Positions 5,586 through 21,265 of a stretch of DNA of 64,000 nucleotides are shown in pieces (the stretch's first letter is position 1; each line of letters starts with the position of its first letter). The notes under the pieces were generated by a model. That model searched no databases and was not told where the DNA came from. It worked only from the letters and a program-made list of their open reading frames with translations. Position numbers and translations under genes: made by a program. Origin of the DNA: Roseobacter sp. (lineage in GTDB: Bacteria; Pseudomonadota; Alphaproteobacteria; Rhodobacterales; Rhodobacteraceae); contig PCCY01000012.1 in NCBI GenBank assembly GCA_002731875.1, positions 1 through 64,000 on the forward strand, given 5' to 3'.

Positions 5586-6812
5586 ATGAAGCGTAGTAAA
5601 CTATCGACCTCGGTTGCCGCACTTACCCGCCGCTCCGTACTTGCCACGGGGGCCGCTGCCCTTGCCATGCCAGCGCTGACAGGGCGCGGCTTTGCACAAG
5701 AAGCTGTGAATGTCGGGGTGATCGTCCCGCTTTCGGGTGCCAATGCACAGTTCGGTATTAACTCGCGCAATGGCATCCAGTTGGTCGCCGATGAGATCAA
5801 TGCCAACGGCGGGATCAAATCAATGGGCGGAGCGCAGATCAATCTGGTCATAGCCGATGCAACCTCGAACCCGACACAGGCGGCCACCGTGGCACAGCGC
5901 ATGATGTCGCAAGATAATGTCGTTGCTGTGTTGGGCGCTTTTGCCTCGTCGCTGACGCTCGCCATCTCCGAAGTAACGGAACGGCGCGGCGTGCCGCTTC
6001 TGACCATGTCATTCTCGGACCAGATCACCGATCGCGGTTTCCAAAATGTGTTCCAGATCGTTTCGCCGGGCAGCCAGATTGGTGCCGCGACGTTCGACTT
6101 CACACGCGCTCTGGCACAAGAGGCAGGCCAAACACTCGAAAAAATCGCAATCATGTACGAAGATACGGCTTATGGAACGTCGCAATCAGCCGGTCTACGT
6201 AAAGCCGCACAGGACGCAGGTATCGAAGTGGTGATGGACGAGGCATACCCTCTCGGCATCACTGACGTCAGCCCGCTTATCAACCAGTTGCGCCGCTCTG
6301 ATGCGCAAGTAGTATTCCCCGTGTCCTATCTCAACGATTCCTTGCTGATCGTGCGCTCGATGCGCCAGCAAGGCATCAATATCCCCACCATCGGCGGTGC
6401 TGCAGGGTATATCATCCCCGACTTCCGCGAGGGTCTGGGCGATCTGGCGGACAATGTTCTGTCGATCTCTCCGGCGGCTTATGATCAGGCGCCAGACTAT
6501 ACCGAGCGTTTCCGTGAGAAATTCGGCTATTTCATGGTGCATGAAGCGCAAGAGCATGCGGCCTGCATGGGATGCCTGCACTCCGCTCTCGAGGCTGCCG
6601 GATCCGCCGATCATGCGGCAATCCGAGAACAACTACAGAATAGTGTCTTTGACCAAGGCTGGGCGACCGTCATGTCCGGCGGCAAGGTTGAATTCGACGA
6701 AATGGGCCGCAACATCCATGCTTCGCCTCTGATGGTGCAATGGCGCGGTGGGGAACTGGTGACCGTTTATCCTAAGGAATACGCCACCGGCGAAGTCGTC
6801 TGGAACAGCTAA
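5586..6812 (+). CDS. branched-chain-type ABC importer, solute-binding protein
   Basis: A 408-residue periplasmic binding protein of the LivK/peripla_BP_6 type. The N-terminus carries a Tat-like signal (RRSVLATGAAALAMPAL, Arg15-Arg16) with probable cleavage near residue 38, and the mature part opens with VNVGVIVPLSGANAQFG, typical of the family. A strong GGGAGGA ribosome binding site lies 5-10 bases upstream. It is the first gene of a complete five-gene importer and is divergent from the GntR/catabolic operon, so the ligand is likely that operon's substrate rather than leucine. Confidence 0.85.
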   Translation: MKRSKLSTSVAALTRRSVLATGAAALAMPALTGRGFAQEAVNVGVIVPLSGANAQFGINSRNGIQLVADEINANGGIKSMGGAQINLVIADATSNPTQAATVAQRMMSQDNVVAVLGAFASSLTLAISEVTERRGVPLLTMSFSDQITDRGFQNVFQIVSPGSQIGAATFDFTRALAQEAGQTLEKIAIMYEDTAYGTSQSAGLRKAAQDAGIEVVMDEAYPLGITDVSPLINQLRRSDAQVVFPVSYLNDSLLIVRSMRQQGINIPTIGGAAGYIIPDFREGLGDLADNVLSISPAAYDQAPDYTERFREKFGYFMVHEAQEHAACMGCLHSALEAAGSADHAAIREQLQNSVFDQGWATVMSGGKVEFDEMGRNIHASPLMVQWRGGELVTVYPKEYATGEVVWNS

Positions 6813-6836
6813 GTAATCACTCAATTTCCAACTCAG

Positions 6837-6867
6837 GGTCCTGAACGGTACTCAGCCGTTCAGGACC
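6837..6867 (+). terminator. hairpin after binding-protein gene (attenuator or mRNA stabiliser)
   Basis: GGTCCTGAACGG (6837-6848) and CCGTTCAGGACC (6856-6867) form a perfect 12-bp stem with a 7-base loop in the gap between the binding-protein and first permease genes. No T-run follows, so it is not a classical terminator. Hairpins here in importer operons commonly stabilise the binding-protein mRNA and raise its level over the membrane subunits. Confidence 0.6.
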
Positions 6868-6891
6868 AGTGGCAGCAGGATCCCGCAGACT

Positions 6892-7782
6892 ATGCAATCG
6901 ATCACCACCTTCTTTCAAACGCTGATCGACGGCGTTTTGATCGGTGGCGTCTATGCCGTCATTTCAATCGGGCTGAGCCTTGTGTTTGGCGTGATGCATA
7001 TCGTCAACTTTGCCCATGCAGAGTTTCTCATGCTGGGTATGTTTATTGCATGGTTTGCCTGGGCCTACGCCGGAATCGACCCGATGCTGGGCGCGTTCAT
7101 TGCCCTGATTATCACATTTTTTATCGGCATGGGCATGCAGCGGGTGCTGATCAAGCCGATCATCGGCGCCCCTCAAGTTGCACAAATCTTCCTCACCGTC
7201 GGATTACTCTTTGCCATGGAAAACGGTGCGCTTTTGCTCTTCGGGGCCGATTTTCGGTCTGTAAGTACTTCCTACCAGACACAGGCTTTAACCCTTTTTT
7301 CGGGCGAGTCCGGTCGAATCCTTGTACCGCTGGATAAGCTCTATGCTTTCTTGATGGCTCTCCTGAGCGGCGCCTCGCTTTGGTTTTTTCTTAACCGCAC
7401 TTCATGGGGGCGTGCAATGCGCGCCACGTCCCAAGACCCGATGGCGGCCAAGCTGACGGGGATCAACACCGACAAGATGTATATGATCGCCTTCGGCCTC
7501 GGCGTCGGCACCACCGCTTTTGGCGGTGCGGTTATTCTGCCCTATATCACCGCTTCTCCGACCGTCGGGTCGCAGTTTGTGGTGCTGATGTTCACCGCCG
7601 TTGTCCTTGGCGGGCTGGGCTCGGTTGCCGGGGCCGTAGTTGGCGGCATCATGGTCGGGCTGATCCAGTCCTTCTCGGCACTGATATTGCCGATCCAGCT
7701 CCAAAATCTGACGCTCTTCGTAATTTTCATTCTGGTGCTCGCTCTCAAGCCTGAAGGGCTGACCGCACGGAGACGCTCATGA
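6892..7782 (+). CDS. ABC importer inner-membrane permease, LivH type
   Basis: A 296-residue hydrophobic protein with about eight membrane segments. It has the LivH signature near the N-terminus (GGVYAVISIGLSLVFGVMHIVNFAHAEF) read in two parts around the conserved NFAH, and the late GGLGSVAGAVVGGI motif that contacts the ATPase. It forms the translocation pore with the next gene product. The stop overlaps the LivM-like start by 4 bases (ATGA). Confidence 0.9.
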   Translation: MQSITTFFQTLIDGVLIGGVYAVISIGLSLVFGVMHIVNFAHAEFLMLGMFIAWFAWAYAGIDPMLGAFIALIITFFIGMGMQRVLIKPIIGAPQVAQIFLTVGLLFAMENGALLLFGADFRSVSTSYQTQALTLFSGESGRILVPLDKLYAFLMALLSGASLWFFLNRTSWGRAMRATSQDPMAAKLTGINTDKMYMIAFGLGVGTTAFGGAVILPYITASPTVGSQFVVLMFTAVVLGGLGSVAGAVVGGIMVGLIQSFSALILPIQLQNLTLFVIFILVLALKPEGLTARRRS

Positions 7783-8765
7783 CCCGTTTTTTCTATCCTT
7801 CCCTCGCAGTGGTGGCTGTTACAGTCATGTCGCTCTTGCCGCTGACACTCGACCCACAAGGATATGAGATTCGCATCTTGTGTATTGCAATGCTTTTTGC
7901 GGCCTTGGGCCAAGCCTGGAACATTGTAGGCGGTCTGGCCAACCAGATTTCGCTGGGGCATGCGGCCTATTTCGGGATCGGGGCCTATACTTCAACCATC
8001 CTGTTGCGGCTGTTCAGCCTTTCGCCTTGGCTCGGTGGAATCTTGGGTATGGTGCTGGCCGTGCTTTTCGCCCTGCTGCTCAGCGTGCCGACGGTGCGCC
8101 TGAAGGGGCACTACTTTGCTCTGGCAACATTGGGAGCCGGAGAGGCGATGCGCGTCATCGCTAATAGCTGGACCAGCGTCACAGGCGGTCCGGTCGGCAT
8201 ATCCGTCCCCTACTCCCGCGAGAGCAGCCTTTGGATGATGCAATTTCCCACGGTCTTGCCCAACTATTACCTATTTTTGATCGCCTTGGTGATCATTTGC
8301 CTCGTGTTCTGGAAGATCCAGACTGGCGCCTTGGGGTTCCGGTTGCGGGCCATAAAGGAAAACGAACAGGCCGCTGAGGTTATCGGCGTAGACACCTATC
8401 GCGCCAAACTGATCGCAAGCACGGTCTCGGCCGCGATTACTGCCTTTATGGGTACGCTCTATGCGCAATTCCAGTTCTTTTTTGACCCCGATACGGTGTT
8501 CGGTGTGGCGACGATTTCGGTCAAGATGGCACTGATCGCAATTCTGGGCGGCGTCGGCACGCTTCTTGGACCACTGCTCGGGGCCGCGTTCATCATTCCG
8601 ATGGAGGAGTTTGCCAACAGCTACTTCGGAGCCTCTGTCGCGGGGCTGTCGCAATTCGCTTACGGCGTTATCCTCGTGGTGATCATCCTGATCAACCCCC
8701 GAGGTCTGGTGGCCCTTATCGGACAGATCAAGAACCGGATTTTCTCGAAAGGAGGGTCGCAATGA
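7779..8765 (+). CDS. ABC importer inner-membrane permease, LivM type
   Basis: A 328-residue multi-spanning protein with the LivM hallmarks GGLANQISLGHAAYFGIGAY near residues 47-66 and GGVGTLLGPLLGAAF near 255-270. It is the partner of the LivH-type permease. The gene overlaps both neighbours by 4 bases, so subunits are produced by coupled translation. Confidence 0.9.
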   Translation: MTRFFYPSLAVVAVTVMSLLPLTLDPQGYEIRILCIAMLFAALGQAWNIVGGLANQISLGHAAYFGIGAYTSTILLRLFSLSPWLGGILGMVLAVLFALLLSVPTVRLKGHYFALATLGAGEAMRVIANSWTSVTGGPVGISVPYSRESSLWMMQFPTVLPNYYLFLIALVIICLVFWKIQTGALGFRLRAIKENEQAAEVIGVDTYRAKLIASTVSAAITAFMGTLYAQFQFFFDPDTVFGVATISVKMALIAILGGVGTLLGPLLGAAFIIPMEEFANSYFGASVAGLSQFAYGVILVVIILINPRGLVALIGQIKNRIFSKGGSQ

Positions 8766-9520
8766 CAGCCCCTATCCTTCAGGTCCAGAACCTGACCCGA
8801 CGGTTTGGCGGCCTTGTAGCCGTCAACGACGTCAGCTTTGAATTGGACCCCGGAGAAATTGTCGGCCTGATTGGCCCCAATGGTGCCGGTAAGACCACCC
8901 TCTTCAACGTTCTGACCGGCATCTACCCCCCGAGTGCGGGGCAGATCCTGCTGCGCGGTGCACCAAGTGGCGGGTTGAAGCCGCACAAGATAGCTGCCCG
9001 CGGGATGACAAAAACCTTCCAGAACGTCGCCTTGTTCATGGAATCCTCGGTACTTGATAATGTGGTCACCGGCGGGCTGTTGAAAAACACCCTCCCCGAG
9101 GCCCGCAAGAAAGCCCGCGCTATACTGGAGCGGGTCGGACTTGCCAGCATCGCAGACAAAAAGGCCGGTGATCTGTCCTTCCCCGAGCGTGCCCGCGTAG
9201 AGGTGGCCCGCGCCCTATGCACCGAGCCTGACATTTTATTACTCGACGAGGTCATGGCCGCGCTTACCCCCGCCGAAATGGAGGACGTCATCACGCTGGT
9301 GCGGTCTTTGCGGGACGAGGGCATTACCTTTGTCGTGGTCGAACATCACATGAAAGCAGTGATGAAATTGTGCGAACGGTTGTTGGTCCTCAATTTCGGC
9401 GAGTTGATCGCCGATGGCACGCCCGCAGACATTGCCCAGAATGATCGGGTTATCGAAGCCTATCTGGGATCGTCCTTTGCCAAAAAACGCCAACACCAAG
9501 CGCCGGAGGTTCTGGCATGA
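8762..9520 (+). CDS. ABC importer ATPase, LivG type
   Basis: A 252-residue ABC ATPase. Walker A is GPNGAGKTT (about residues 39-47) and Walker B is [13 protein letters not shown]. The signature is [15 protein letters not shown] rather than LSGGQ, a variant also seen in LivG homologs of catabolic Liv clusters. The H-loop is in [11 protein letters not shown]. It energises import together with the LivF-type subunit that follows with a 4-base overlap. Confidence 0.9.
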
Positions 9521-10251
9521 CGAAACCATCGGCAACCGGTGCCCCGCTTTTGACTATCGAAAACCTCTGCGCGTCTTACGGGGGCGCATGGGTACTCAAG
9601 GACGTGTCCCTGACCATGCAGGTAGGCGAATTTCTGGCGATCATCGGCGCAAATACTGCTGGAAAAAGTACCTTACTTAAGGCGATTTCCGGTCTGATGC
9701 CTCAGACCAGAGGAAACATTTCTTTTTTGCGGCACGACTTGCTGAACACTCCCGCCCACTGCGTGCCGACATTAGGCATCGCTCACGTCCCCGAAGGCCG
9801 TCATGTATTTACGGAAATGACCGTAGAAGAAAATCTCCGCACGGGGGCCTTCACGCGGGGAAAGTCCTCTGGGGTTGGCGACTCAATAGCGCGTATTTTC
9901 GACCTGTTCCCCCGTCTCAAAGAGCGGCGCACCCAGCTGGCGGGCACGCTCTCAGGCGGCGAGCAGCAGATGGTGGCCGTCGGGCGTGGCATGATGCTGG
10001 ACCCCAAGCTGCTTATTCTGGATGAACCGAGCCTTGGCCTCGCGCCAATTGTGGTCGAAGAGATGCACGATCGATTTCACGAGATCCACAACAGCGGTGT
10101 CTCTGTCCTGCTGGTAGAACAAAACGTTTCCCTCGCACTTGAAAGCGCAGGACGGGCATATGTAATGTCTTCGGGCAGCATTGAGTTTGAGGGAATTGCG
10201 ACAGAGTTGGCCCAAGATGATCGAATTCGTCGCGCGTATCTCGGAATCTGA
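9517..10251 (+). CDS. ABC importer ATPase, LivF type
   Basis: A 244-residue ABC ATPase, last gene of the importer. Walker A reads GANTAGKST, keeping GxxxxGK[ST] but with Thr where LivF proteins normally have Gly. The signature is LSGGEQQMVAVGRGM and Walker B LLILDEPSLGLAP; the H-loop histidine position reads VEQNVSLALE, normal for LivF. The protein should be functional. Transcription probably ends in the following 320-base gap, although no clear intrinsic terminator was found. Confidence 0.88.
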   Translation: MTKPSATGAPLLTIENLCASYGGAWVLKDVSLTMQVGEFLAIIGANTAGKSTLLKAISGLMPQTRGNISFLRHDLLNTPAHCVPTLGIAHVPEGRHVFTEMTVEENLRTGAFTRGKSSGVGDSIARIFDLFPRLKERRTQLAGTLSGGEQQMVAVGRGMMLDPKLLILDEPSLGLAPIVVEEMHDRFHEIHNSGVSVLLVEQNVSLALESAGRAYVMSSGSIEFEGIATELAQDDRIRRAYLGI

Positions 10252-10572: not shown

Positions 10573-11505
10573 TCACCGCATCACGAAGGGGTTCGCCATG
10601 GGCGTGTCCGACGTATTGATCCAAGTCGTTTTCGTGCGGGTATAGTCATAGATCGCATCTACGCCTGCCTCTCGTCCGTAGCCTGAGTGGTTATATCCCC
10701 CAAAGGGCGCGATGGGTGAAATAGCACGGTAGGTGTTGATCCAACAGATCCCAGCCTTGAGCCATTTTGAAACGCGGTGTGCACGGGAAAGGTTTTGCGT
10801 GAACACACCCGATCCAAGCCCGAATGGCGTACTATTGGCCAGCGATATGGCCTCCTCTTCGGTGTCAAAGGGGATCAGGGACATGACGGGGCCGAACAAT
10901 TCAACATGCACGGTTTCGATGTCATGCCTATCACATTGTACCAGGGTCGGCGCCATGTAATTGCCCGGCCGCTCCAGTGCTGCGCCGCCAAACCGGATCT
11001 GTGCGCCCTGCGCCTTCGCCTTCGCCAGAGCTGCAATGATATGATCAATCTGCGCCTTGGTACAAAGCGGCCCCAAATGCGTGGCGGCATCCAGAGGATT
11101 ACCGATAACGATGCTTTGAACCGTGAGCGCGATACGCTCTGTCAACGCTTCGAGGATAGGCCGGTGGATCAGGCCGCGCGATCCGGCGGCACAACTTTGC
11201 CCCGATGCCCCGAAGTTGCCCGCGACCAGCCCGTTGGCAGCGCCATTCAGATCGGAGTCATCAAAGACGACGATCGGGGACTTTCCGCCCAGTTCAAGCG
11301 AGGTCACGGCAAAGTTCTCGGCCGAGTTGCGAACCACATGGCGCGCGGTTTCAGGCCCGCCGGTAAAGGCGATCCGGTCGACATCAGGATGACGGGTCAA
11401 AGGGATGGCGCAACTCTCCGTGTCCCCTGTGATGACCGAAACCACGCCAGCCGGGAACCCCGGCCTCTTGGACCAACTTTGCGAACGCAAGCATCGGAGC
11501 GGCGC
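10573..11505 (-). pseudogene. aldehyde dehydrogenase, 5'-truncated and frameshifted
   Basis: The readable frame covers the C-terminal two thirds of an NAD(P)-dependent aldehyde dehydrogenase: GFPAGVVSVITG, IAFTGGPETARHV, the glutamate motif LELGGKSP, the region of the catalytic cysteine (FGASGQSCAAGSRG) and the FGPVMSLIPF and PFGGYNHSGYGRE motifs. Near 11455-11460 a run of four Gs shifts the frame: upstream, a different frame reads APMLAFAKLVQEAG, which joins correctly only if one G is removed. The first ~180 residues (N-terminal cofactor-binding part) have no counterpart upstream. It is a relic, decayed by truncation plus a 1-base insertion. Confidence 0.8.
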
Positions 11506-11607
11506 AACATTGCACAATTCCGGGCCACCGATGAAGACGCCGCGGATATACTCGGCGCGAGCACCTATGTGCGCCGAATTGAACAACTGGCTGAGGATCT
11601 GCAGCAT

Positions 11608-12197: not shown

Positions 12198-13976
12198 TCA
12201 CATTGCAACCAAGTGCCCCGCTCCCATTGCCCTGTACTGAAGAATCTGAGGAGATTGACCGACTGGCATCACCGGGCTCACGAGTTCTGTTGCCGGCTTT
12301 TCACTGGCGGGTATTTTGCGTTCTGGGTCCGGGAACGGTGCGGCCGCGATAAGACGTTGCGTGTATGGATGCTGCGGATTTCCAAACACCTGAGCACTGG
12401 TACCGATTTCGACGATTTGGCCCAGATACATCACGGCGACGCGATCGGCGATGTTTTCGACCACTGCCATATCATGCGAGATAAACAGATAGGACATGCC
12501 GAACTCAGACTTCAGCTCCTGCAAAAGGTCTAATACAGTTGCCTGCACCGATACATCCAAAGCTGAGACGCTTTCGTCGGCGATTATCAGTTTCGGGTTC
12601 AAAGCTAACGCCCGCGCAATACAAATTCGCTGACGTTGTCCGCCAGAAAACTCATGCGGATAGCGATCAAGTGCTTCAGGACCAAGACCGACGCGGTTGA
12701 ACAGCTCTGTCGCGCGATCCGTTCGGCTTTGAGGCGTACCGATCTCATGAATGACCATCGGCTCTCTGACCAGATCCCCCACGGTCATGCGGCCGTTAAG
12801 CGCTGCCATAGGATCCTGGAATACCATCTGCATCGCGCGCGTGTTGGCGCGTTGCGACTGGCGGTCACGCATAATCGGTTTGCCGGCAAACGTCACGACC
12901 CCCTCATGCGGGACAAGTCCGGTCAAAGCACGCGCAATAGTAGACTTGCCGCACCCGCTTTCACCCACGATGGCGAAAGTCTCCCCGGGAAAGATCTCGA
13001 AGTTTACTTTTTCGACGGCATGGACGCGTGCTTGAACACGGTCCAGAATACCCCCGCGGAGATCATAGGTTACCCTCAGGTCTCTCACTGAAACCAAAGG
13101 TTGTACTGTGGTATCTACCTTGGTTTCGCGTCCCTTTCCCATGCGTGGCACACTGGAAAGCAGTTGCTGCGTATAAGGCATTTTGGGATCGCGAAACAGC
13201 GTGCGAACCGCAGCCTCCTCGACCAGCTGGCCCTTTTGCATCACCAGAACACGGTCCGCCATCTCGGCGACAACGCCCATATCATGGGTGATCAGGATCA
13301 ACGCCATACCCATTTCTGACGTGAGTACGCGCAACAGGTCCAGAACCTCACGCTGCACGGTCACATCCAATGCCGTGGTCGGCTCGTCGGCTATCATCAC
13401 ATCAGGGCGCAGCGCAATCGCCATGGCGATGACGACCCGTTGGCGCATACCGCCAGATAGTTCATGCGGATACTGTCTCATCCTGCGCTCTGGTTCGGTC
13501 AAGCGCACGGCCTTGATCGCCTCGAGTGCACGAACACGTGCCGCGCGTCGCGACATCGGCTCGTGCGCGCGTATCGCTTCGGTTAGCTGATCTCCAATCC
13601 GCATCACGGGGTTCAAGGCAGTCATGGGTTCTTGGAATATCATAGCGATACGGTCGCCGCGTAGACGCTGTAGCTTGTGTTCGGACAACCTGGTGAGGTC
13701 GGCACCGTCGAATATGATCCCGCCGCCAGAGATGTGAACCGCAGGCGGAGGCAGCAAACCCATTATCGCCAATGAGGTGAGCGACTTTCCTGAACCGCTT
13801 TCACCTGCGATGGCAAGCGTTTCACCGGCTTCAAGATCGAAACTGAGATCTCGTACAAGCGGCTGAATACCCGCATCACTGCGCACAGAAATATCAAGAT
13901 TACGTACAGATAAGATTGGGGCCCGATCACCGGCAGCTACAGTCGCTGCCGATGAGGTTGGTGTGGAGGCAGTCAT
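12198..13976 (-). CDS. Dpp/Opp-type ABC importer ATPase, two fused ATPase domains
   Basis: A 592-residue protein with two complete ABC cassettes in tandem, equivalent to DppD fused to DppF (GsiA-like). Cassette 1: Walker A GESGSGKS, signature LSGGMRQRVVIAMA, Walker B VMIADEPTTALD. Cassette 2: Walker A GESGCGKST, signature FSGGQRQRICIARAL, Walker B LIIADESVSALD. Both carry the family's C-terminal oligopeptide-transport region. The ATG at 13976 overlaps the amidase stop (ATGA). It is the last gene of the amiC-led operon and powers the importer formed by the two permeases and binding protein. Confidence 0.92.
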   Translation of the reverse strand: MTASTPTSSAATVAAGDRAPILSVRNLDISVRSDAGIQPLVRDLSFDLEAGETLAIAGESGSGKSLTSLAIMGLLPPPAVHISGGGIIFDGADLTRLSEHKLQRLRGDRIAMIFQEPMTALNPVMRIGDQLTEAIRAHEPMSRRAARVRALEAIKAVRLTEPERRMRQYPHELSGGMRQRVVIAMAIALRPDVMIADEPTTALDVTVQREVLDLLRVLTSEMGMALILITHDMGVVAEMADRVLVMQKGQLVEEAAVRTLFRDPKMPYTQQLLSSVPRMGKGRETKVDTTVQPLVSVRDLRVTYDLRGGILDRVQARVHAVEKVNFEIFPGETFAIVGESGCGKSTIARALTGLVPHEGVVTFAGKPIMRDRQSQRANTRAMQMVFQDPMAALNGRMTVGDLVREPMVIHEIGTPQSRTDRATELFNRVGLGPEALDRYPHEFSGGQRQRICIARALALNPKLIIADESVSALDVSVQATVLDLLQELKSEFGMSYLFISHDMAVVENIADRVAVMYLGQIVEIGTSAQVFGNPQHPYTQRLIAAAPFPDPERKIPASEKPATELVSPVMPVGQSPQILQYRAMGAGHLVAM

Positions 13977-14920
13977 TCGAACACGCAACGCGGGAAATAG
14001 AAGGACACAACCCAGTTCGGCATATCAACAATTTCCGAAATTCGCAGATCGCCACATGTCGATACCAGCATATAGGCATCTTCTGCTGACAAACCTTGCG
14101 TTTTGCCTAACAAATCGACCATCTGGCTTACGGCTTCTTGTGCGCCGGTCATCAGGTCCGGACCAATACCGGTGGTGACTTCATACCCCTTGGAATCCAA
14201 ATGGTTGGTAACGGGACCCGGTGTTGTGAAGCGCGGCATTTTGAGATGCGCGTCTTTTATCAGGTCGAGCGTTACCGTGGCATTCATAGGGCTTTCGATC
14301 GCGGTGCCGCAGACCTCGCCATCGCCTTGTGCTGCGTGGGTATCACCGATGGAGAACAATGCTCCGGCGACTTCGACCGGCAGGTACAGGGTTGTTCCCG
14401 CGGCCAGGTCCCTGATATCAAGGTTGCCCCCGACGCGCCGTGGTGGGACGACCGAGTGCAACCCCGGTTCCGCAAGAGCGCAACCGATGGTACCAGCGAA
14501 AGGCTTAAGCGGAACGCGCCCGTTTTTGCCAAACAAGGCTGGCTCCAGCGTATCCGGATCATACTTCCAGATCGTCAGCGCCGGATTCTTGAACTGATCG
14601 GCCAGCAGGCCGAAACCGGGTATATTTGCGGTCCAACCGAAGCCGGAAGGTTTAAAACCTTCAATGGTGATTTTCAGCGCGTCGCCGGGCTCGGCCCCGT
14701 CCACGTAGACGGGACCTGTGACCGGGTTGATCTTGCCAAAATCCATAGCCGCGACATCGGCGACGGTACTGTCCGCATTCAGCTGACCCGCTGAGCTGTC
14801 GTGGCATTCGAATTCGATTGTTTCACCAGGTGCCACCGTGATGGCTGGGACAAACGAGTTGTCCCAGCCAAAGTGGTGGCTTGCGCCGTGAATGGTATAG
14901 TCAGGACATTTATTGCACAT
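13973..14920 (-). CDS. acetamidase/formamidase family amidohydrolase
   Basis: A 315-residue cytoplasmic protein of the FmdA_AmdA family, which hydrolyses short amides such as formamide or acetamide to the acid and ammonia. Family features seen: an N-terminal beta segment with the WDNSFVPAITVAPGETIEFE motif, NPVTGPVYVDGAEPGDAL, the GDTHAAQGDGEVCGTAIE motif with the conserved His/Asp/Glu, and the late STCGDLRISEIVD. It overlaps the binding-protein gene by 11 bases. Its presence inside an AmiC/AmiR-controlled import operon argues that the imported ligand is an amide. This family is unrelated to the nitrilase-type AmiE of Pseudomonas. Confidence 0.88.
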   Translation of the reverse strand: MCNKCPDYTIHGASHHFGWDNSFVPAITVAPGETIEFECHDSSAGQLNADSTVADVAAMDFGKINPVTGPVYVDGAEPGDALKITIEGFKPSGFGWTANIPGFGLLADQFKNPALTIWKYDPDTLEPALFGKNGRVPLKPFAGTIGCALAEPGLHSVVPPRRVGGNLDIRDLAAGTTLYLPVEVAGALFSIGDTHAAQGDGEVCGTAIESPMNATVTLDLIKDAHLKMPRFTTPGPVTNHLDSKGYEVTTGIGPDLMTGAQEAVSQMVDLLGKTQGLSAEDAYMLVSTCGDLRISEIVDMPNWVVSFYFPRCVFE

Positions 14921-16550
14921 CGTTTACATACACATAGTCATAGTTAACAGGGATAGAGACCGGATCGACATACAGCTTGTCATCGCCGCCCATACGTTCG
15001 GACCTCATGGTGTAGCGCTGCTCGTTAAACACTGGCACCCAAGGCGCGTCTTCCATGACTGCCATGTAGATATCGGACCACATTTTCAGGCGCTCATCGA
15101 CCATAGCTGGATCGGTCATGCTGTCAGCTTTGACCGCCATCGCATCGGTATCCGCATTGCAGTACCATGACCAGTTCCAGCCGCCCGGCACGGCCCCGTC
15201 ACAGCCCAGAATCGGGCCGTAAAAGTTAGACGCATCAGGGAAATCGGCAATCCACGCCATACCGCCCGACCAGATCATCGGTGCTTGGTCAGCTTCACCG
15301 CCCGCAGCAATGACGCTGGCCTGAGCAAGGGATTGGATCGTGGCTTTCACCCCGATCTTCGAGAGGTCCTGCTGAATCGCTTGCGCGATGCGTGGGTTCG
15401 GATCGGTGTTCATCACAAACAATTCGGTCTCGAAACCATCAGGGAACCCGGCCTCAGCGAGCAGTGCTTTGGCGGCTTCAGGGTCATAGGAATAGCCTTC
15501 ATAACCTTCTGTGTAGCCGGGCATGGAAGGTGGAAGCGGTTGCGTTGCCGGAACGGCACGGCCGTTGATGACTTGGGTAATCCGTTCTTTGTTGATCGCC
15601 ATATTGACTGCTTTACGCACATCGACATTGTCGAAAGGAGCCATTTTCACGTTGAGCGTAATGTAGCCCGTATGAAGCTGACCACCTTCGATCACACGCG
15701 CTGCTTGCTCCGGGTCACCCATGACCTCTTGGAATTTAGCCGGCGGAATACCATCACCTGGCACGTCGACTTCACCGTTTTGCAGACGTAGCAACGCAAC
15801 GATTGGCTCCTGGCCTACCTCGAAAGTGACGCTATCCAGGTAAGGTAAGCCTTCACGCCAGTAATCTTGGTTTTTCTCGAAAACCAACTTTTGTCCGATG
15901 GTCCAGTCTGCCAACTTAAATGCACCCGTCCCCATCGCGGTCTTGCCGAAATCGGCCCCTGCGGCTTCTACCGCTTCCTTTGCCACCACAGAGGCGAAGT
16001 TGAGGCCCATCACGTGCAGGAAGGTCGCATCCGGGCGTGACAGGGTGATCTCTACGGTTTGCTCATCCAAAACTTTGACGCCAGACAGTCCAGTTGCCGT
16101 GCCCGATGATACGGCATTATATCCTTCGATCGAACCAAAGAAACCCGCGCCAGGGCTTTGGGTCGCAGGATCGGTCACGCGATCCAGCGAGTATTTCACA
16201 TCATCGGCTGTCATCACGCGACCGTTGTGAAACTTGACCCCTTCGCGAAGTTTAAACGTGAAAACCTTACCATCTTCCGAAATGTCATAGCTTTCGGCCA
16301 GCCCAGGGCGCAGCTCGGTTGTGCCCGGCTCATAATCCATAAGACCATCGTACAAAGATTTGATCATGGACCAGTTCTGCCAGTCATACCCGATAGCAGG
16401 GTCCAAGGTGGCGACGTCGTCTTTATAGGTCACGGTGATGTTGCCACCCGATTTTGCGTTCGGATCAAGATTGGAATGGGCATCGGCTGCAACCATCTGA
16501 GGCAGACCGAGGGCTGCGACCAAAGCCGAGGTTGTAAGTAGTTTTTTCAT
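14910..16550 (-). CDS. ABC importer solute-binding protein, family 5 (Dpp/Opp type)
   Basis: A 546-residue periplasmic protein. It has a Sec signal peptide (MKKLLTTSALVAALGLPQMV, cleavage after VAADA or nearby) and the SBP_bac_5 pattern: GYDWQNWSMIKSLYDGL, the LAESYDISEDGKVFTFKLRE strand pair and the FHNGRVMTADDVKYSLDR signature. It captures an oligopeptide-sized or cationic ligand; here an amide or amidated compound is inferred from the adjacent amidase and AmiC/AmiR. A 29-base gap separates it from the upstream permease gene. Confidence 0.9.
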   Translation of the reverse strand: MKKLLTTSALVAALGLPQMVAADAHSNLDPNAKSGGNITVTYKDDVATLDPAIGYDWQNWSMIKSLYDGLMDYEPGTTELRPGLAESYDISEDGKVFTFKLREGVKFHNGRVMTADDVKYSLDRVTDPATQSPGAGFFGSIEGYNAVSSGTATGLSGVKVLDEQTVEITLSRPDATFLHVMGLNFASVVAKEAVEAAGADFGKTAMGTGAFKLADWTIGQKLVFEKNQDYWREGLPYLDSVTFEVGQEPIVALLRLQNGEVDVPGDGIPPAKFQEVMGDPEQAARVIEGGQLHTGYITLNVKMAPFDNVDVRKAVNMAINKERITQVINGRAVPATQPLPPSMPGYTEGYEGYSYDPEAAKALLAEAGFPDGFETELFVMNTDPNPRIAQAIQQDLSKIGVKATIQSLAQASVIAAGGEADQAPMIWSGGMAWIADFPDASNFYGPILGCDGAVPGGWNWSWYCNADTDAMAVKADSMTDPAMVDERLKMWSDIYMAVMEDAPWVPVFNEQRYTMRSERMGGDDKLYVDPVSIPVNYDYVYVNDVQ

Positions 16551-16579
16551 TATAATTTACTCCTGTTGGATAGGTATTA

Positions 16580-17500
16580 TTAGCGGACCTTGATCCGCGG
16601 GTCGGCAAATAAGGACGCAATGTCTGCGACCAGATTGCCAATGACGATGGCGCAAGCTGATACCAGCGTGACGCCCATGATGATTGGTATGTCCACACGC
16701 TGGATCGCCTGCCATGCGAGCTGTCCGATGCCAGGCCATCCGAAAACGGATTCCACAACAACGATACCGCCCATAAAGATGCCGACGTCGATCCCGATCA
16801 TCGCGATGATCGGCAGAACGGCATTTGGCAAAGCATGACGCAGCAAAACACGCATGCGGCTCAATCCTTTGGCGCGCGCTGTACGAATGAAATCCTGTCG
16901 CAGGACATCAATCATCGAAGATCGCATCATGCGACTGTACCAGCCCGATCCAAGGATACCCAAAGTGATAGATGGCAGAACCATGTGTGCGAACGTGCCG
17001 TAACCGCCTATCGGGAACCAATGCAGTTGGACAGCAAAGACGTAGAGCATCAGCAACCCTACGACGAACTGCGGAGCAGACACGCCGATGAAGCTTGCCA
17101 TCATTAAGGTGTTATCGGTAGCCGTACCTCGCCGCAGTGCAGCTACCACCCCCATGGTGATTCCTAAAACCAGTTCACACACGATGGCACCTAACATCAA
17201 AAGCAAGGACGCGGGCAACCGAGCGGCTATAAGCGTACTGACTTCGGTCTTTTGCAAGTAAGAGCGCCCCAGATCACCCTGTACCAGATTACCGAGATAC
17301 CGCGCGTATTGAACGATGAACGGCTGATCCAGACCAAGCTGAGCACGAATATTCGCGACGGTTTCCGGTGTCGCTGAACGGCCGGCAATCTGACGCACCG
17401 GATCGGCTGGAAATAGGTACAGCAGCGCAAAAGTGATAAACGAAACACCCAGTAGAATAAGACCGGACTGGAGCAAACGCTTGATGATAAAGGCCACCAT
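16580..17500 (-). CDS. ABC importer permease, DppB type
   Basis: A 306-residue membrane protein with about six spans. The first (MVAFIIKRLLQSGLILLGVS) followed by TFALLYLFPADPVR is typical of DppB/OppB, as is the ATPase-contact EAA loop around RTARAKGLSRMRVLLRHALPNA read in two parts. Its start overlaps the stop of the DppC-type gene (TAATG). It pairs with that protein to form the channel. Confidence 0.9.
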   Translation of the reverse strand: MVAFIIKRLLQSGLILLGVSFITFALLYLFPADPVRQIAGRSATPETVANIRAQLGLDQPFIVQYARYLGNLVQGDLGRSYLQKTEVSTLIAARLPASLLLMLGAIVCELVLGITMGVVAALRRGTATDNTLMMASFIGVSAPQFVVGLLMLYVFAVQLHWFPIGGYGTFAHMVLPSITLGILGSGWYSRMMRSSMIDVLRQDFIRTARAKGLSRMRVLLRHALPNAVLPIIAMIGIDVGIFMGGIVVVESVFGWPGIGQLAWQAIQRVDIPIIMGVTLVSACAIVIGNLVADIASLFADPRIKVR

Positions 17501-18384
17501 TATTCGCGCCCCCGTTGTGTAGGGTCTAGCACATCACGCAGCGCATCACCGACGAGATTGAAGGCCAGGGCCAATGTTACGATCGCTAAGCCGGGAAAGA
17601 ACACCAACCAGGGAGCCGCCTGAAAATATGTTTGATTCTCGAAAATAATGTTACCCCAGCTCGGCGTGGGAGGCTGAACCCCCACCCCAAGAAAGCTCAG
17701 CGTCGCTTCAAGTAGAACCGTGGTCGAAATGCCTAACGTACCCCACACAATAATCGTCGGGGTAAGGTGCGGCAGGATGTGCCTGAACAGGATACGCATA
17801 TTTCCTGCACCCAATGTACGCTCTGCCGCTATAAACTCACGTTGTGACAGGCTTGCCGTTTCGGCATACAAAACACGCGCGGTTTGCACCCAGTTCACCG
17901 TGGCAATCACCATTGCAACGATCCACAGCGACGGCTGGAAGATCGCAGCAAGACAAATAGCCAGCAAGAGCGCGGGGAACGCCATCATAAGGTCGGTAAA
18001 CCTCATGAGCATGTTGCCCCAAACACCTCCGAAATAGCCTGCCGTTACACCGACAAACGTCCCGATAATCAAGGCCACACCATTCGCCAGAACACCGATG
18101 ATGAGCGAAGTACGCGCACCGTATAAAATGCGGGTCAACAAATCCCGGCCAAGCAGATCCGTCCCCAGTGCAAATTGGCCCCCCGGTGCCATCGGAGCAC
18201 CTTGCAAGGTGAGACCATCGAACATTTGGTCGTTTGGTTCATAGGGAGTGAGGTAAGGTGCAAAAAGAGCACCAAATACTGTCAGGGTTATCAAAGCCAT
18301 GCCAAAAAGCGCAAGTTTACGCTTTTTCAGTCGCTGGCAAACTGTCGGTGGCATAAGTACTGGTGTCGCCTCAGCAAATGCCAC
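17500..18384 (-). CDS. ABC importer permease, DppC type
   Basis: A 294-residue membrane protein with the DppC/OppC layout: an N-terminal span, then the GTDLLGRDLLTRILYGARTS motif, the EAA loop around REFIAAERTLGAGNMRILFR and the LGVGVQPPTPSWG motif near the C-terminus. It overlaps the amiR-like gene upstream by 14 bases and the DppB-type gene downstream by one, so the sensor, regulator and transporter are tightly coupled. Confidence 0.9.
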   Translation of the reverse strand: MAFAEATPVLMPPTVCQRLKKRKLALFGMALITLTVFGALFAPYLTPYEPNDQMFDGLTLQGAPMAPGGQFALGTDLLGRDLLTRILYGARTSLIIGVLANGVALIIGTFVGVTAGYFGGVWGNMLMRFTDLMMAFPALLLAICLAAIFQPSLWIVAMVIATVNWVQTARVLYAETASLSQREFIAAERTLGAGNMRILFRHILPHLTPTIIVWGTLGISTTVLLEATLSFLGVGVQPPTPSWGNIIFENQTYFQAAPWLVFFPGLAIVTLALAFNLVGDALRDVLDPTQRGRE

Positions 18385-18970
18385 GATCGGCTCCTCTCGC
18401 CTCTGAATGCTTCACGATCTCCACCGCTGCGTCCTCCATTGTCATTTTCCACGCCATCGCAAGTTGGCGTAAATCGTCATATGCGGTCTCTTCGGAGCCG
18501 GTCTTCTTCGCTAATAGGGTTACTGCTTGCACAATTGTCTGACGCGCCGACACGCGATCCCGCAGGGCACCAATCTCGGCCAGCAGTGCTTTGCGTCTTT
18601 CGAATGATTGCCGCGCCATCAAAAGGGACGCAAAGACGCCACTTGCGGCCAGCGGCTTGACCAAAAGTGCATCTGCACCTGTTTTGGATGCCCATTCGAT
18701 CCGTCCCGGCGCTTCGGATCCGACCAGTGCAATCATCGGCATTGGTGACTGACCTGTTGCCCAGGGAAACTGAGCATCGTGGCCTGCATCTGTATCGTAA
18801 AGAATGAAATCTGCTGTGATCGCGGAAGCCGGCAGTGTCGGCCACGCCGTTTCCACCTCAAGACCGATCGCGCGCAACTGACGCAGTAACACCGGCAAAC
18901 GGTCATGTGCAGGGTGCAAAACAATTGCTCGAGCACCTTCCAATCCCGCTATATCGATCGGCGGACTCAT
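18371..18970 (-). CDS. amiR: ANTAR-domain RNA-binding antiterminator, AmiR-like
   Basis: A 199-residue protein. Residues 1-115 resemble a degenerate receiver domain (ARAIVLHPAHDRLPVLLRQL, no clear phospho-acceptor Asp). Residues ~118-185 are a coiled coil running into a three-helix ANTAR domain (VSARQTIVQAVTLLAKKTG, then ETAYDDLRQLAMAWKMTMED). In Pseudomonas aeruginosa AmiR binds the leader of amidase mRNA and stops it folding into a terminator; AmiC holds AmiR inactive until an amide binds. Here the gene follows amiC with an ATGA overlap and a leader terminator sits upstream of amiC, so the same mechanism is inferred. Confidence 0.85.
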   Translation of the reverse strand: MSPPIDIAGLEGARAIVLHPAHDRLPVLLRQLRAIGLEVETAWPTLPASAITADFILYDTDAGHDAQFPWATGQSPMPMIALVGSEAPGRIEWASKTGADALLVKPLAASGVFASLLMARQSFERRKALLAEIGALRDRVSARQTIVQAVTLLAKKTGSEETAYDDLRQLAMAWKMTMEDAAVEIVKHSEARGADRGIC

Positions 18971-20046
18971 GCTTGCACCACTTTCAGCATCGGATCACTA
19001 AATCTTGGGTGTCGCGATGGTCGGGTGAGGTAAGGGTCGGGTGCAATATCCGACCAGCTATGCAGGATTTTAAATGCGCCGCTTCGGACCTGCGCGATAT
19101 GCACGTCGAGCGACTTGTGTTGGGTCGCAGGATCAATGCCGTAAAGGGCCCCGTGTTGCGCCAGATAACTGTCAAATGGACCGTTTGCTCCATGCGCCAG
19201 TGCTTCAGCCAAAGTCAGCACAGACTGATACGAGGTACGCTCCAAAGAAGACCCCTCCCCGTTCGCTGTGGGGGTTTTGCAAAAGGATGGACCAACCGAG
19301 ATCAACCCTTCTGCCGCTTCCCCGAGCACGGGAAGCTCTGCTTCGGTCAGATTACATGACAGCAAGGGGCAATTGTCGGGTGCGAAATGAGAATCACGTT
19401 TTCCCAATTCAGCATAGGCGTTGATGAATGCGTACGAGGAGGCCCCTACAAGTGAATTCAATATGAACTTCGGGCGACTTCTTTCTATCTCGTCGATTAG
19501 GCTATCAACAGACGTGTCACCCAGCGGCAGGTAACGTTCACCTAATACAGCACCGCCCGCAACCTCAAGCCGCGTGCGCATCACCCTACACGTCTCCCAT
19601 CCCCAGATGTAATTGGACCCGACAAGATAGACGGACATGCCGAAGTGGCGTGTTGCCCAGCCCAACAGCGGAAGAATGTTCTGGTTTGTAGCAGCGTGCG
19701 AATAAACAACACGAGCCGATGTCTCGAACCCCTCGTATGGAACGTTGTACCATAGTGTTGCCTGGGCACGATCCAGCTCGGGGATAACTTCCTTTCGGCT
19801 TGAGGACGTGACGCAGCCCACCACATGTTTTGCAGAAGAACTGGATAGGATTTCCGCGCACATCGGGGCGTAATTCGTAAGCTCTCCAGCGGGGTCCCGG
19901 ACGATTGGGTTGAAGAAGATCGGCAGATCATGGTTGGCGTTGACACGTTCAATCGCCGACATTGCCCCGGCGAACAACGCCTCAGACAACAACCGATAGG
20001 TGCCTGAGCGAGAGTACAATACACCAAGATCAAACGTCTTCGACAT
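18967..20046 (-). CDS. amiC: AmiC-like amide-sensing repressor of the antiterminator
   Basis: A 359-residue protein of the periplasmic-binding fold (peripla_BP_5), without a signal peptide, as expected for a cytoplasmic AmiC. It opens with DLGVLYSRSGTYRLLSEALF and contains EVIPELDRAQATLWYNVPYEG-like and YLVGSNYIWGWE segments found in AmiC/UrtA-type sensors. The ATG at 20046 is chosen because the fold begins there; upstream codons run through the leader hairpins. AmiC binds short amides and releases AmiR. First gene of a seven-gene operon. Confidence 0.85.
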   Translation of the reverse strand: MSKTFDLGVLYSRSGTYRLLSEALFAGAMSAIERVNANHDLPIFFNPIVRDPAGELTNYAPMCAEILSSSSAKHVVGCVTSSSRKEVIPELDRAQATLWYNVPYEGFETSARVVYSHAATNQNILPLLGWATRHFGMSVYLVGSNYIWGWETCRVMRTRLEVAGGAVLGERYLPLGDTSVDSLIDEIERSRPKFILNSLVGASSYAFINAYAELGKRDSHFAPDNCPLLSCNLTEAELPVLGEAAEGLISVGPSFCKTPTANGEGSSLERTSYQSVLTLAEALAHGANGPFDSYLAQHGALYGIDPATQHKSLDVHIAQVRSGAFKILHSWSDIAPDPYLTRPSRHPRFSDPMLKVVQA

Positions 20047-20057
20047 GGTATCCCCAT

Positions 20058-20102
20058 AAAAAAAGCCCCGACACCGCCAACCTAAGTTGCTTCTGTCGAG
20101 GC
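20058..20102 (-). terminator. leader intrinsic terminator just upstream of amiC (attenuator)
   Basis: Read in the direction of transcription, GCCTCGACA (20102-20094) pairs with TGTCGGGGC (20073-20065), 9 bp with one G-T pair and a 20-base loop, followed immediately by a run of seven T (20064-20058). It ends 11 bases before the amiC ATG, with the whole operon behind it. A terminator before an AmiC/AmiR operon is the expected target of ANTAR antitermination. Confidence 0.8.
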
Positions 20103-20107
20103 CCGAA

Positions 20108-20151
20108 TGCCCTTGCTTGGCCAAGGCCAAAGCATGATCTGATTTAAGATC
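20108..20151 (-). promoter_or_regulatory. leader hairpins upstream of the amiC attenuator (possible AmiR target)
   Basis: In the transcript, GATCT-TAAATC-AGATC (20151-20136) forms a stem with a 6-base loop. It is followed by a GGCC-containing hairpin (20133-20115) and then the 5' arm of the terminator. ANTAR proteins bind two short stems with 6-base loops having A at position 1 and G at position 4; these loops do not match that rule exactly by eye. The layout (hairpins then terminator) fits, the sequence match is unproven. Confidence 0.4.
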
Positions 20152-20246
20152 ACCTAATTTTAATGCCCCAGAATCGTTACTCGCGCAATTTATTTCCCCG
20201 GAATTGTGACAATAAATCTGCAACACCTGAGTGACAGCTTAATTTT

Positions 20247-20542
20247 TAAGCAGCTTTGGGAAAAACCGCATGTATGGGGAAAGAAACTCGGCTTGAATGC
20301 GCACCATCTATGCAGCCTCTGGTGTTCCCGATGCGGGACGCATGGATGACCCGATTACCGGCACGCATGTCTATTATGTTCCGCCACTGCCGCCGCCACA
20401 AAGGATGCTGCATCGCGGCCCGCCCTTTTCACGACATTCGCAGAAGACAAGTAATTCAAGGGCGGCGTTATTGTGCAGACGTCCGTGTCATGTCACGGGA
20501 GCATTCCATTGGTCGGAAGAATCGTCGGTAATGATCAATGCA
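20247..20542. other. intergenic, no recognised gene
   Basis: Between the amiC promoter region and the araC relic. The amide operon promoter should lie around 20230-20300 (leftward). Plus-strand frames here have no recognisable domain. Confidence 0.4.
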
Positions 20543-21265
20543 TCACACCACGGCCACTGGCGATTGACGCGCATCGCTCCACCGCCGTGGCGACTGACCA
20601 TATCGGCGTTTGAACCCTTGGCTGAACGGCGAGGCGCTGACGTAGCCAATCTTCAGCACGGCTTTGGAAACGGTCATGCCGTCTGCTATCTTCATCGCGG
20701 CGCTGTTCAGGCGCATGGACTATACGAAGTGGATCGACGACATCATGGTCGCCTGATTGAACTTGCGATGAAACATGGCCCGGCGCATACCAGCGCGACC
20801 CGCCATGTCGTCAATGGATACCGACACATCCAGCCGGGACGACATATACGCGATTGAGCCCGCAACGGCATTGCCGGCGGCAAAGGCCTCTAGAGCAAAC
20901 GCCCCTGCTTCGCCTTCCAGGATGGCAGAGTACAGCTCGCGCAGCCTTGCATTACCAAGAATGGCAACGTCCGCCGCACTTTCCCCAAGCTGCACCAACC
21001 GCAGGAGCGCGTCGAGAAAGCCAACGTTATAAACGTCGTATAGCGGGTTCTCGGCGGGTGCTGTGGGAGTCCCGGCCTCCATCGGCATGGACGTCGGACA
21101 GCACAGATCTTCGCTGCTGTCATTGACGTAGCGCAGCCCGTCAAAAATCGTTTCCTTGCCGACGAGGATCACGGAATTGACAGCCTTAGCCTGAAGCTTG
21201 CTAACCCGCGCGGCAACCCTTGTTAGTGAACGGTTTTCAGCGTCCATCCCTAAGGGCGGGGGCAC
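20543..21265 (-). pseudogene. AraC-family regulator relic (in-frame TAG, internal deletion)
   Basis: The frame shows an AraC_N-type sensor domain fragment (YLCCPTSMPMEAG-like: DLCCPTSMPMEAGTPTAPAE) and the first helix-turn-helix (VSIDDMAGRAGMRRAMFHRK). A TAG at 20720-20722 stands where AraC proteins have lysine in FVKSMRL; the same frame then continues with SMRLNSAAMKIADGMTVSKA, IGYVSASPFSQGFKRRYGQS and stops at 20543. The sensor domain is shorter than usual, as if bases were lost after LYDVY, and no good start is seen. Non-functional unless the amber codon is read through. Confidence 0.7.

Follow-up and report, generated by a model that had tools for sequence, protein, structure and literature searches.

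A widespread seven-gene amide operon of Alphaproteobacteria with a leader probably switched by its own AmiC/AmiR pair

The first 64,000 nt of contig PCCY01000012.1 from a Roseobacter sp. assembly (GCA_002731875.1), referred to here as the window, contain a minus-strand operon in which genes for an AmiC-like amide sensor and an AmiR-like antiterminator are followed by genes for a Dpp-type importer and an FmdA-family enzyme, all of them behind a hairpin-terminator. This arrangement raises the question of whether the sensor pair controls its own operon through that leader, and of what the operon imports. We consider it probable that this is a self-contained amide-scavenging operon with its own leader switched by AmiC/AmiR antitermination, and our best reading of the comparative data is a mobile operon autoregulated by AmiC/AmiR via a derived ANTAR target. 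Observed directly in the sequences, as described below, are the gene content and order and how well these are conserved, the two hairpins that exclude each other, and the loop letters kept among leaders.

Seven packed genes occupy positions 12198-20046 of the minus strand, with the transcription order amiC, amiR, dppC, dppB, dppA, fmdA and dppDF, as read from open reading frames (ORFs), translations and Pfam matches:

18967..20046, minus strand: amiC, AmiC-like amide-binding sensor, 359 aa (Pfam, structure homology, residue alignment)
18371..18970, minus strand: amiR, antiterminator with an AmiR_N pseudo-receiver and an RNA-binding ANTAR domain, 199 aa (Pfam, PDB match)
17500..18384, minus strand: dppC-type permease, GTG start (Pfam, NCBIfam)
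16580..17500, minus strand: dppB-type permease (Pfam, NCBIfam)
14910..16550, minus strand: dppA-type solute-binding protein, SBP_bac_5 (Pfam, NCBIfam)
13973..14920, minus strand: fmdA, acetamidase/formamidase family enzyme, 315 aa (Pfam, NCBIfam)
12198..13988, minus strand: dppDF, fused double ABC ATPase, called from an uncertain TTG start (Pfam, NCBIfam)

Five of the six gene junctions overlap, and the single gap (dppB-dppA) is 29 nt. Pfam assigned to the products, in the same order, Peripla_BP_5, AmiR_N with ANTAR, BPD_transp_1 twice, SBP_bac_5, FmdA_AmdA and a double ABC ATPase, which bears out an initial annotation of this DNA that had described seven tightly packed leftward genes with these identities. 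The AmiC/AmiR assignment in that annotation also stood: AmiR scored above cut-off with both the AmiR_N pseudo-receiver (56.5 bits) and ANTAR (36 bits) models of Pfam and had AmiR of Pseudomonas aeruginosa (1qo0_D) as its best PDB match, while AmiC is homologous to the P. aeruginosa AmiC structures 1pea/1qo0 and has a UrtA-like sensor fold according to NCBIfam. No NCBIfam family matched AmiR. The importer carries the Pfam domains of the Dpp/Opp (peptide/nickel) family (SBP_bac_5, BPD_transp_1 with OppC_N, and oligo_HPY ATPase); in NCBIfam its permeases and binding protein scored best against Opp, Dpp, Gsi and Nik models, every one of them below the curated cut-off. FmdA exceeded the cut-off of Pfam PF03069 (199.4 bits vs 27) and fell under that of the NCBIfam FmdA equivalog (125.2 bits vs 500), which places it outside the classical formamidases as that model defines them.

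The leader upstream of amiC contains the following elements:

20134..20153, minus strand: P1-like hairpin, GTGATCT / AGATCAT with one G-U pair and the hexaloop TAAATC (sequence; seven pairs in the fold)
20116..20131, minus strand: extra hairpin TTTGGC[CTTG]GCCAAG, between P1 and P2 (sequence)
20100..20111, minus strand: P2, antiterminator-type hairpin GGC[ATTCGG]GCC, loop 20108-20103 with A1, C4 and G5 (sequence, leader comparison)
20065..20102, minus strand: intrinsic terminator stem-loop, its 5' arm beginning with the GCC of P2 (sequence, fold, leader comparison)
20058..20064, minus strand: T7 run of the terminator (sequence)

The terminator arms are GCCTCGACA (20102-20094) and TGTCGGGGC (20073-20065), and 11 nt separate the end of the T7 run from the amiC ATG (20046). 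A 9-bp hairpin with a seven-T run at this distance had been described before and is present in the sequence, the stem growing to 11 pairs in the RNA fold. Because the GCC is shared by the 3' strand of P2 and the 5' arm of the terminator, P2 and the terminator are mutually exclusive, as in ANTAR antitermination. In a close relative (L002) the P1-like position reads GTGATCT[TAAATC]AGGTCAC, and the extra hairpin is missing. Taken alone, the window leader is mildly unusual in its folding (z of -1.90 and -1.59 relative to shuffles), and the case therefore rests on comparison among relatives. The window matched no Rfam family at gathering threshold, and all matches in a permissive Rfam scan of the leader were far below their gathering scores. 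A simple terminator scan of the window did not list the terminator of the amiC leader, presumably because hairpins with loops longer than 8 nt are outside its range.

For the comparison, genome_contigs was scanned with an alignment of 31 AmiRs, which retrieved 387 relatives of any closeness. A strict leader test required GGC-N6-GCC joined to a long stem and then at least 4 T in 8 nt. Among 122 amiC leaders, from a set in which several loci are the same genome reached twice, 111 passed this test compared with 5 of 610 dinucleotide shuffles; when A1 was also required, 1 of the 610 shuffles passed. Without the T tract, P2 joined to a long stem was present in 118 of the 122 leaders and in 58 of 610 dinucleotide shuffles. 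The hairpin-terminator is thus more than chance, and the lack of a conserved one in homologous leaders, which the initial annotation had named as fatal to its proposal, did not arise. The GGC-N6-GCC motif is missing from four leaders (L009, L013, L014 and L016), all with distant AmiRs. In the long-stem test of the 122 leaders the fold overshot the terminator in L036, L039, L091 and L112, and L010 and L015, in which the amiC start is absent, were not counted.

Ninety-eight leaders were kept as distinct, any two of which differ in more than 7 of 70 positions. The P2 GCC strand has at least 2 of its 3 nt paired in the terminator stem in 95 of 97 distinct leaders (L052 was left out of this analysis), and the terminator arms vary in a compensatory manner, pair 5 for example being CG in 76 leaders, TA in 12, TG in 5 and GC in 4. 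The distance from the element to amiC is 15-41 nt in 110 of 118 leaders. The position of the attenuator before the sensor gene itself, to which the initial annotation had drawn attention, is kept across several families of Alphaproteobacteria.

The search pattern imposed the GGC and GCC letters of P2, which therefore prove nothing by being invariant; it did not ask for A1, Y4 or R5. Loop position 1 is A in 98 of 98 distinct leaders. Position 4 is C in 75, T in 14, A in 7 and G in 2, and position 5 is G in 68, A in 28 and C and T in 1 each, so that 96 of 98 leaders have R5. The targets of EutV, NasR and AmiR are reported to be hexaloops with A1 and G4 (PMC3369931), and in the EutV structure G4 is described as stacked on Tyr164 and held by Arg142, Lys149 and Glu160 (PMC8934654). 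When the EutV contact positions were mapped onto the window AmiR and compared across 120 AmiRs, the R142 equivalent was kept in 120, an aromatic residue at Y164 in 120, R168 in 120 and M172 in 118, with E at the E160 position in 98. The two G4 leaders (L008 and L012) both go with distant AmiRs; since the K149 position of these is V as well, a simple K149-G4 link becomes less convincing.

An upstream hairpin (P1) was scored near P2 in 52 of the 98 leaders, compared with a mean of 12.1 and a maximum of 23 in 200 mononucleotide shuffles, with loops of 4-7 nt and not only of six. The search range was within 6 nt of P2, and the window was thus scored on its inserted hairpin and not on the P1-like one. 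Within this range P1 was unscored in leaders of Rhizobium relatives (such as L067, L070, L087, L094 and L101) and likewise in many Rhodobacteraceae leaders. Its presence in about half of the leaders would agree with a 2022 paper that regards a single hexaloop as the minimal site, yet every hexaloop must, according to the same paper, be contacted to stop termination. ANTAR leaders are known in Alphaproteobacteria from the NasT hairpins of Bradyrhizobium (PMC6759348).

Gene order was read at the best 80 of the 387 loci by AmiR, and seven genes in identical order were present at 73 of the 80. Five more loci agree up to the contig end, and two are variants (L052 and L064) in which AmiC-AmiR-FmdA is followed by a different Dpp-type set. 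By record title the best 80 loci presumably span Rhodobacteraceae, Rhizobiaceae, Phyllobacteriaceae and Aurantimonadaceae, and the nearest named AmiR among them is that of Sulfitobacter litoralis (94%), which makes Sulfitobacter the probable source of the window. A close AmiR (E <=1e-30) was found in 40 of 394 genomes of the same family and 10 of 60 relatives had an AmiR match at E 0.001, both tallies including the window's own genome. The seven-gene layout is a widespread fixed operon. It does differ from the classical ami operon, as the initial annotation had remarked, in having its leader before amiC and an FmdA enzyme; it is not an oddity. Neighbours were clustered from crude longest-ORF calls of at least 110 aa at 83 loci, with homologues of the seven genes excluded (for example second Dpp clusters beside L075, L096, L102 and L113). 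Among these 625 neighbouring ORFs, none of which had more than 6 matches, no widely shared neighbour was found, so the cassette looks like a unit with sharp edges. A peptide-pattern scan of viral contigs retrieved no AmiC relatives.

Several loci showed further peculiarities. At L113 a second, divergent FmdA-DppDF-DppC-DppB-DppA cluster adjoins the operon on the opposite strand, with 35-50% identity. Genome G000 has a second AmiC/ANTAR pair (G000:C19:144529-145053, L013) with 29% AmiR identity and without a GGC-N6-GCC leader, and genome G026 has two close AmiC-AmiR copies (L005 and L011, on contigs C3 and C4) with near-identical leaders. In a record titled Bacillus subtilis (L086), which is probably mislabelled or contaminated, the leader of the operon is almost the same as the one in Pseudochrobactrum (L119).

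The operon is also found on plasmids. The same seven genes lie in the same order in 7.8 kb of the Phytobacter plasmid pTMTA97301 (L127), and this order recurs on plasmids of Sinorhizobium sp. B11 (L128) and Sulfitobacter sp. OXR-159 (L129). In PLSDB, FmdA matched 1171 plasmid records, of which 868 fall in the 60-80% identity range and 754 come from Klebsiella, whereas AmiR matched 276, of which 20 come from Klebsiella (at about 26% identity among the matches listed); the far smaller number of AmiR matches fits faster AmiR divergence. Between the window and L127, identity is 70% for FmdA, 70-71% for the permeases, 66% for DppA and 56% for DppDF, in contrast to 35% for AmiC and an AmiR alignment that spans just 43 aa. 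With L128 it is 72% for FmdA, 37% for AmiC and 39% for AmiR. To judge from these identities, the sensor pair and its RNA may have changed much faster than the catabolic part, or may have been replaced. The L127 leader can be read as P2 GGU[AAUGAA]GCC, with the canonical A1 and G4 that the window lacks as a pair, although its fold shows the terminator and not P2. In the L128 leader (GGGC[AGUUUC]GCCC) A1 is present while G4 and R5 are both absent, which limits the R5 rule to the close clade.

A 2026 paper describes an acetamidase operon of about 8 kb on a plasmid of Klebsiella sp. KOS9, in which amiC and amiR are accompanied by genes for two permeases, a binding protein, an ATPase and an acetamidase. 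It gives a similarity of more than 99% to plasmids from Phytobacter and others, and an acetamidase activity of 3355 U/mg in acetamide-grown cells (PMC13209695). The section of that paper on the operon gives the gene set, and neither gene order nor leader. Because L127 spans 7.8 kb with a matching gene set, and Phytobacter is a genus among the >99% matches, we take L127, whose gene order is that of the window, to represent the Klebsiella operon. If so, the operon has already been published as an acetamidase operon; among the literature matches listed, this paper is the only one we recognised as describing the gene set. If the leader switch operates as proposed below, it would also account for a frequent, mostly unstudied nitrogen-scavenging operon, found in Alphaproteobacteria of sea and soil and apparently present on enterobacterial plasmids as well.

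How the leader would act can be modelled on AmiC/AmiR and EutV, from which we take ligand release, RNA binding and read-through. The Dpp/Opp-type importer would take up an amide, and FmdA would hydrolyse it to ammonia and an acid. Transcription would start a short way upstream and by default stop at the terminator before amiC, with basal read-through yielding AmiC and AmiR, which would be silent together as a complex. Binding of the amide to AmiC would free AmiR to grip the P2 hexaloop, so that the terminator is blocked and all seven genes are transcribed. As amiC and amiR lie behind their own attenuator, inducer would raise both, which may make the circuit self-amplifying or may just sharpen its response, the leader governing inhibitor (amiC) and activator (amiR) jointly.

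This scheme has clear counterparts. The ami operon of P. aeruginosa likewise combines an amide-binding repressor (AmiC), an ANTAR antiterminator (AmiR) and a leader terminator with a short hairpin at its 5' base, as described in PMC3369931. Unlike that operon, in which the leader precedes amiE, the operon here has its leader before amiC, a Dpp-type importer, an FmdA_AmdA enzyme and a loop with A1 and Y4-R5 in place of A1-G4. Of the same switch suggested earlier, the AmiC/AmiR assignment and the leader terminator are supported; the target loops are non-canonical (G4 in 2 of 98). The amiE amidase of P. aeruginosa has the amidase fold and is unrelated to FmdA. The dual-hexaloop target of EutV in Enterococcus faecalis resembles the present leader in a hexaloop hairpin that excludes the terminator, in A1, and in the contacts R142, Y164, R168, M172 and mostly E160; it differs in that G4 is absent here, K143, K149 and N173 are mostly absent, and a second hairpin is found in about half of the leaders. 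With the FmdDEF or UrtABCDE urea/formamide systems the operon shares amide use, the FmdA name and the UrtA-like sensor fold, and it departs from them in its Dpp/Opp-type importer and in an FmdA that scores 125 bits against the NCBIfam cut-off of 500. Compared with L127, which has the gene set of the KOS9 operon, the window differs in its diverged sensor pair and in the loop.

Several observations weigh against AmiC/AmiR antitermination at this leader, or against its link to acetamide. The canonical ANTAR letter G4 is missing, with C4 in the window and G4 in 2 of 98 leaders. Three EutV contacts are mostly lost among the 120 AmiRs (K149 to V in 117, K143 to Q in 111 and N173 to A in 89), a clear upstream hairpin occurs in just 52 of 98 leaders, and the scan of the window listed no promoter near the leader. 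An importer of the Dpp type is an unusual choice for so small a substrate as acetamide. The Klebsiella enzyme is named amiE, no uninduced acetamidase value is given beside the acetamide-grown one in the text of PMC13209695 available to us, and the Klebsiella operon, which appears to be the same, was likened to this one via L127 and the gene set and not via the pKOS9-W1 sequence.

The hairpin could simply attenuate constitutively, or could terminate a transcript from upstream, in either case independently of AmiR. We regard this as improbable, even though terminator strength alone accounts for the stem and the T run, P2 has just three base pairs, and the window leader folds mildly better than shuffles. 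The A1 of the loop lies outside the terminator, is useless to it and is not demanded by the search pattern, yet it is invariant in the 98 leaders, while the 30 nt upstream of P2 carry at most 0.4 bits per position; the 15-41 nt spacing before amiC counts against this explanation as well. We consider it very improbable that AmiR has its target elsewhere, in another RNA or a promoter, and that the leader is read by something else, such as translation or Rho. A non-canonical loop and an inconsistent P1 would be in keeping with such a target. The exact leader pattern, however, has a single site in this genome, at this operon, and 7 distinct sites in 60 genomes, 5 of which are amiC leaders, with 1 match for a reversed control pattern. 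It found the leaders of G000, G005, G023, G034 and G035 and missed those of G014 and G026, whose AmiRs are also close, so diverged targets could escape it; with a pattern that misses such leaders, no regulon beyond the operon itself was seen.

The operon's substrate is suggested by AmiC and by the related plasmids. Across 125 AmiCs the equivalents of Ser85 (124, with one gap), Tyr150 (125), Tyr104 and Pro107 (119 each), which we take to be the amide-holding residues of AmiC, are kept; the Thr106 position is V, C or L in 103 and the Thr233 position is N in 118. The AmiC ligand is likely an amide. By analogy with the related plasmids, the substrate may be acetamide or a similar short amide. Neighbour clustering gave no clue to the substrate since, the seven-gene homologues aside, neighbours share nothing widely. 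An alternative that we hold to be unlikely retains the AmiC/AmiR switch and supposes a larger amide, such as an amidated dipeptide or a peptide-like compound, that needs the Dpp importer, with FmdA acting on the amide or its product. The changes at Thr106 and Thr233 mean that the ligand may differ, the best-scoring models for the permeases and binding protein are of the Opp, Dpp, Gsi and Nik kinds (each score under its cut-off), and both loci with a variant transporter still have one of Dpp type. The amide-holding positions of AmiC are nevertheless kept, and acetamidase activity was reported for a strain whose sole acetamidase gene, according to the authors, sits in an apparently identical operon (PMC13209695). 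The peptide-sized amide proposed in the initial annotation is thus not favoured, acetamide being the sole substrate for which we found experimental support, of an indirect kind.

Returning to AmiC/AmiR antitermination, we tentatively raise, as a possibility short of an expectation, a derived ANTAR code in which AmiR reads no longer loop position 4 (G) but position 5 (R), the K149-type contact of EutV having been lost, and in which lineages where no P1 was detected need just one hexaloop. If true, the operon family would put the 'one hexaloop per dimer' model to a natural test: the operon is mobile, its sensor pair has diverged faster than its enzyme, and the recognition code could be followed through it. 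Should the switch operate as proposed, the leaders (118 in hand, with 387 amiR relatives of any closeness) also form a large natural set in which RNA loop and ANTAR protein vary together, and from which rules of ANTAR recognition would become readable and testable.

Beside the operon in the window, positions 5586-10251 of the plus strand encode a complete ABC importer of the branched-chain-amino-acid type (binding protein, two permeases and two ATPases). Just downstream of dppDF, an aldehyde dehydrogenase gene (10573-11607, minus strand) matches only profile positions 166-460 of 461 and looks truncated at its N-terminal end. Upstream of the leader (20540-21265, minus strand), an AraC_N fragment ends at a stop and HTH-like sequence resumes in frame beyond it, so that this AraC-type regulator looks broken. 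Decayed genes on both flanks of the operon form a pattern as after insertion.

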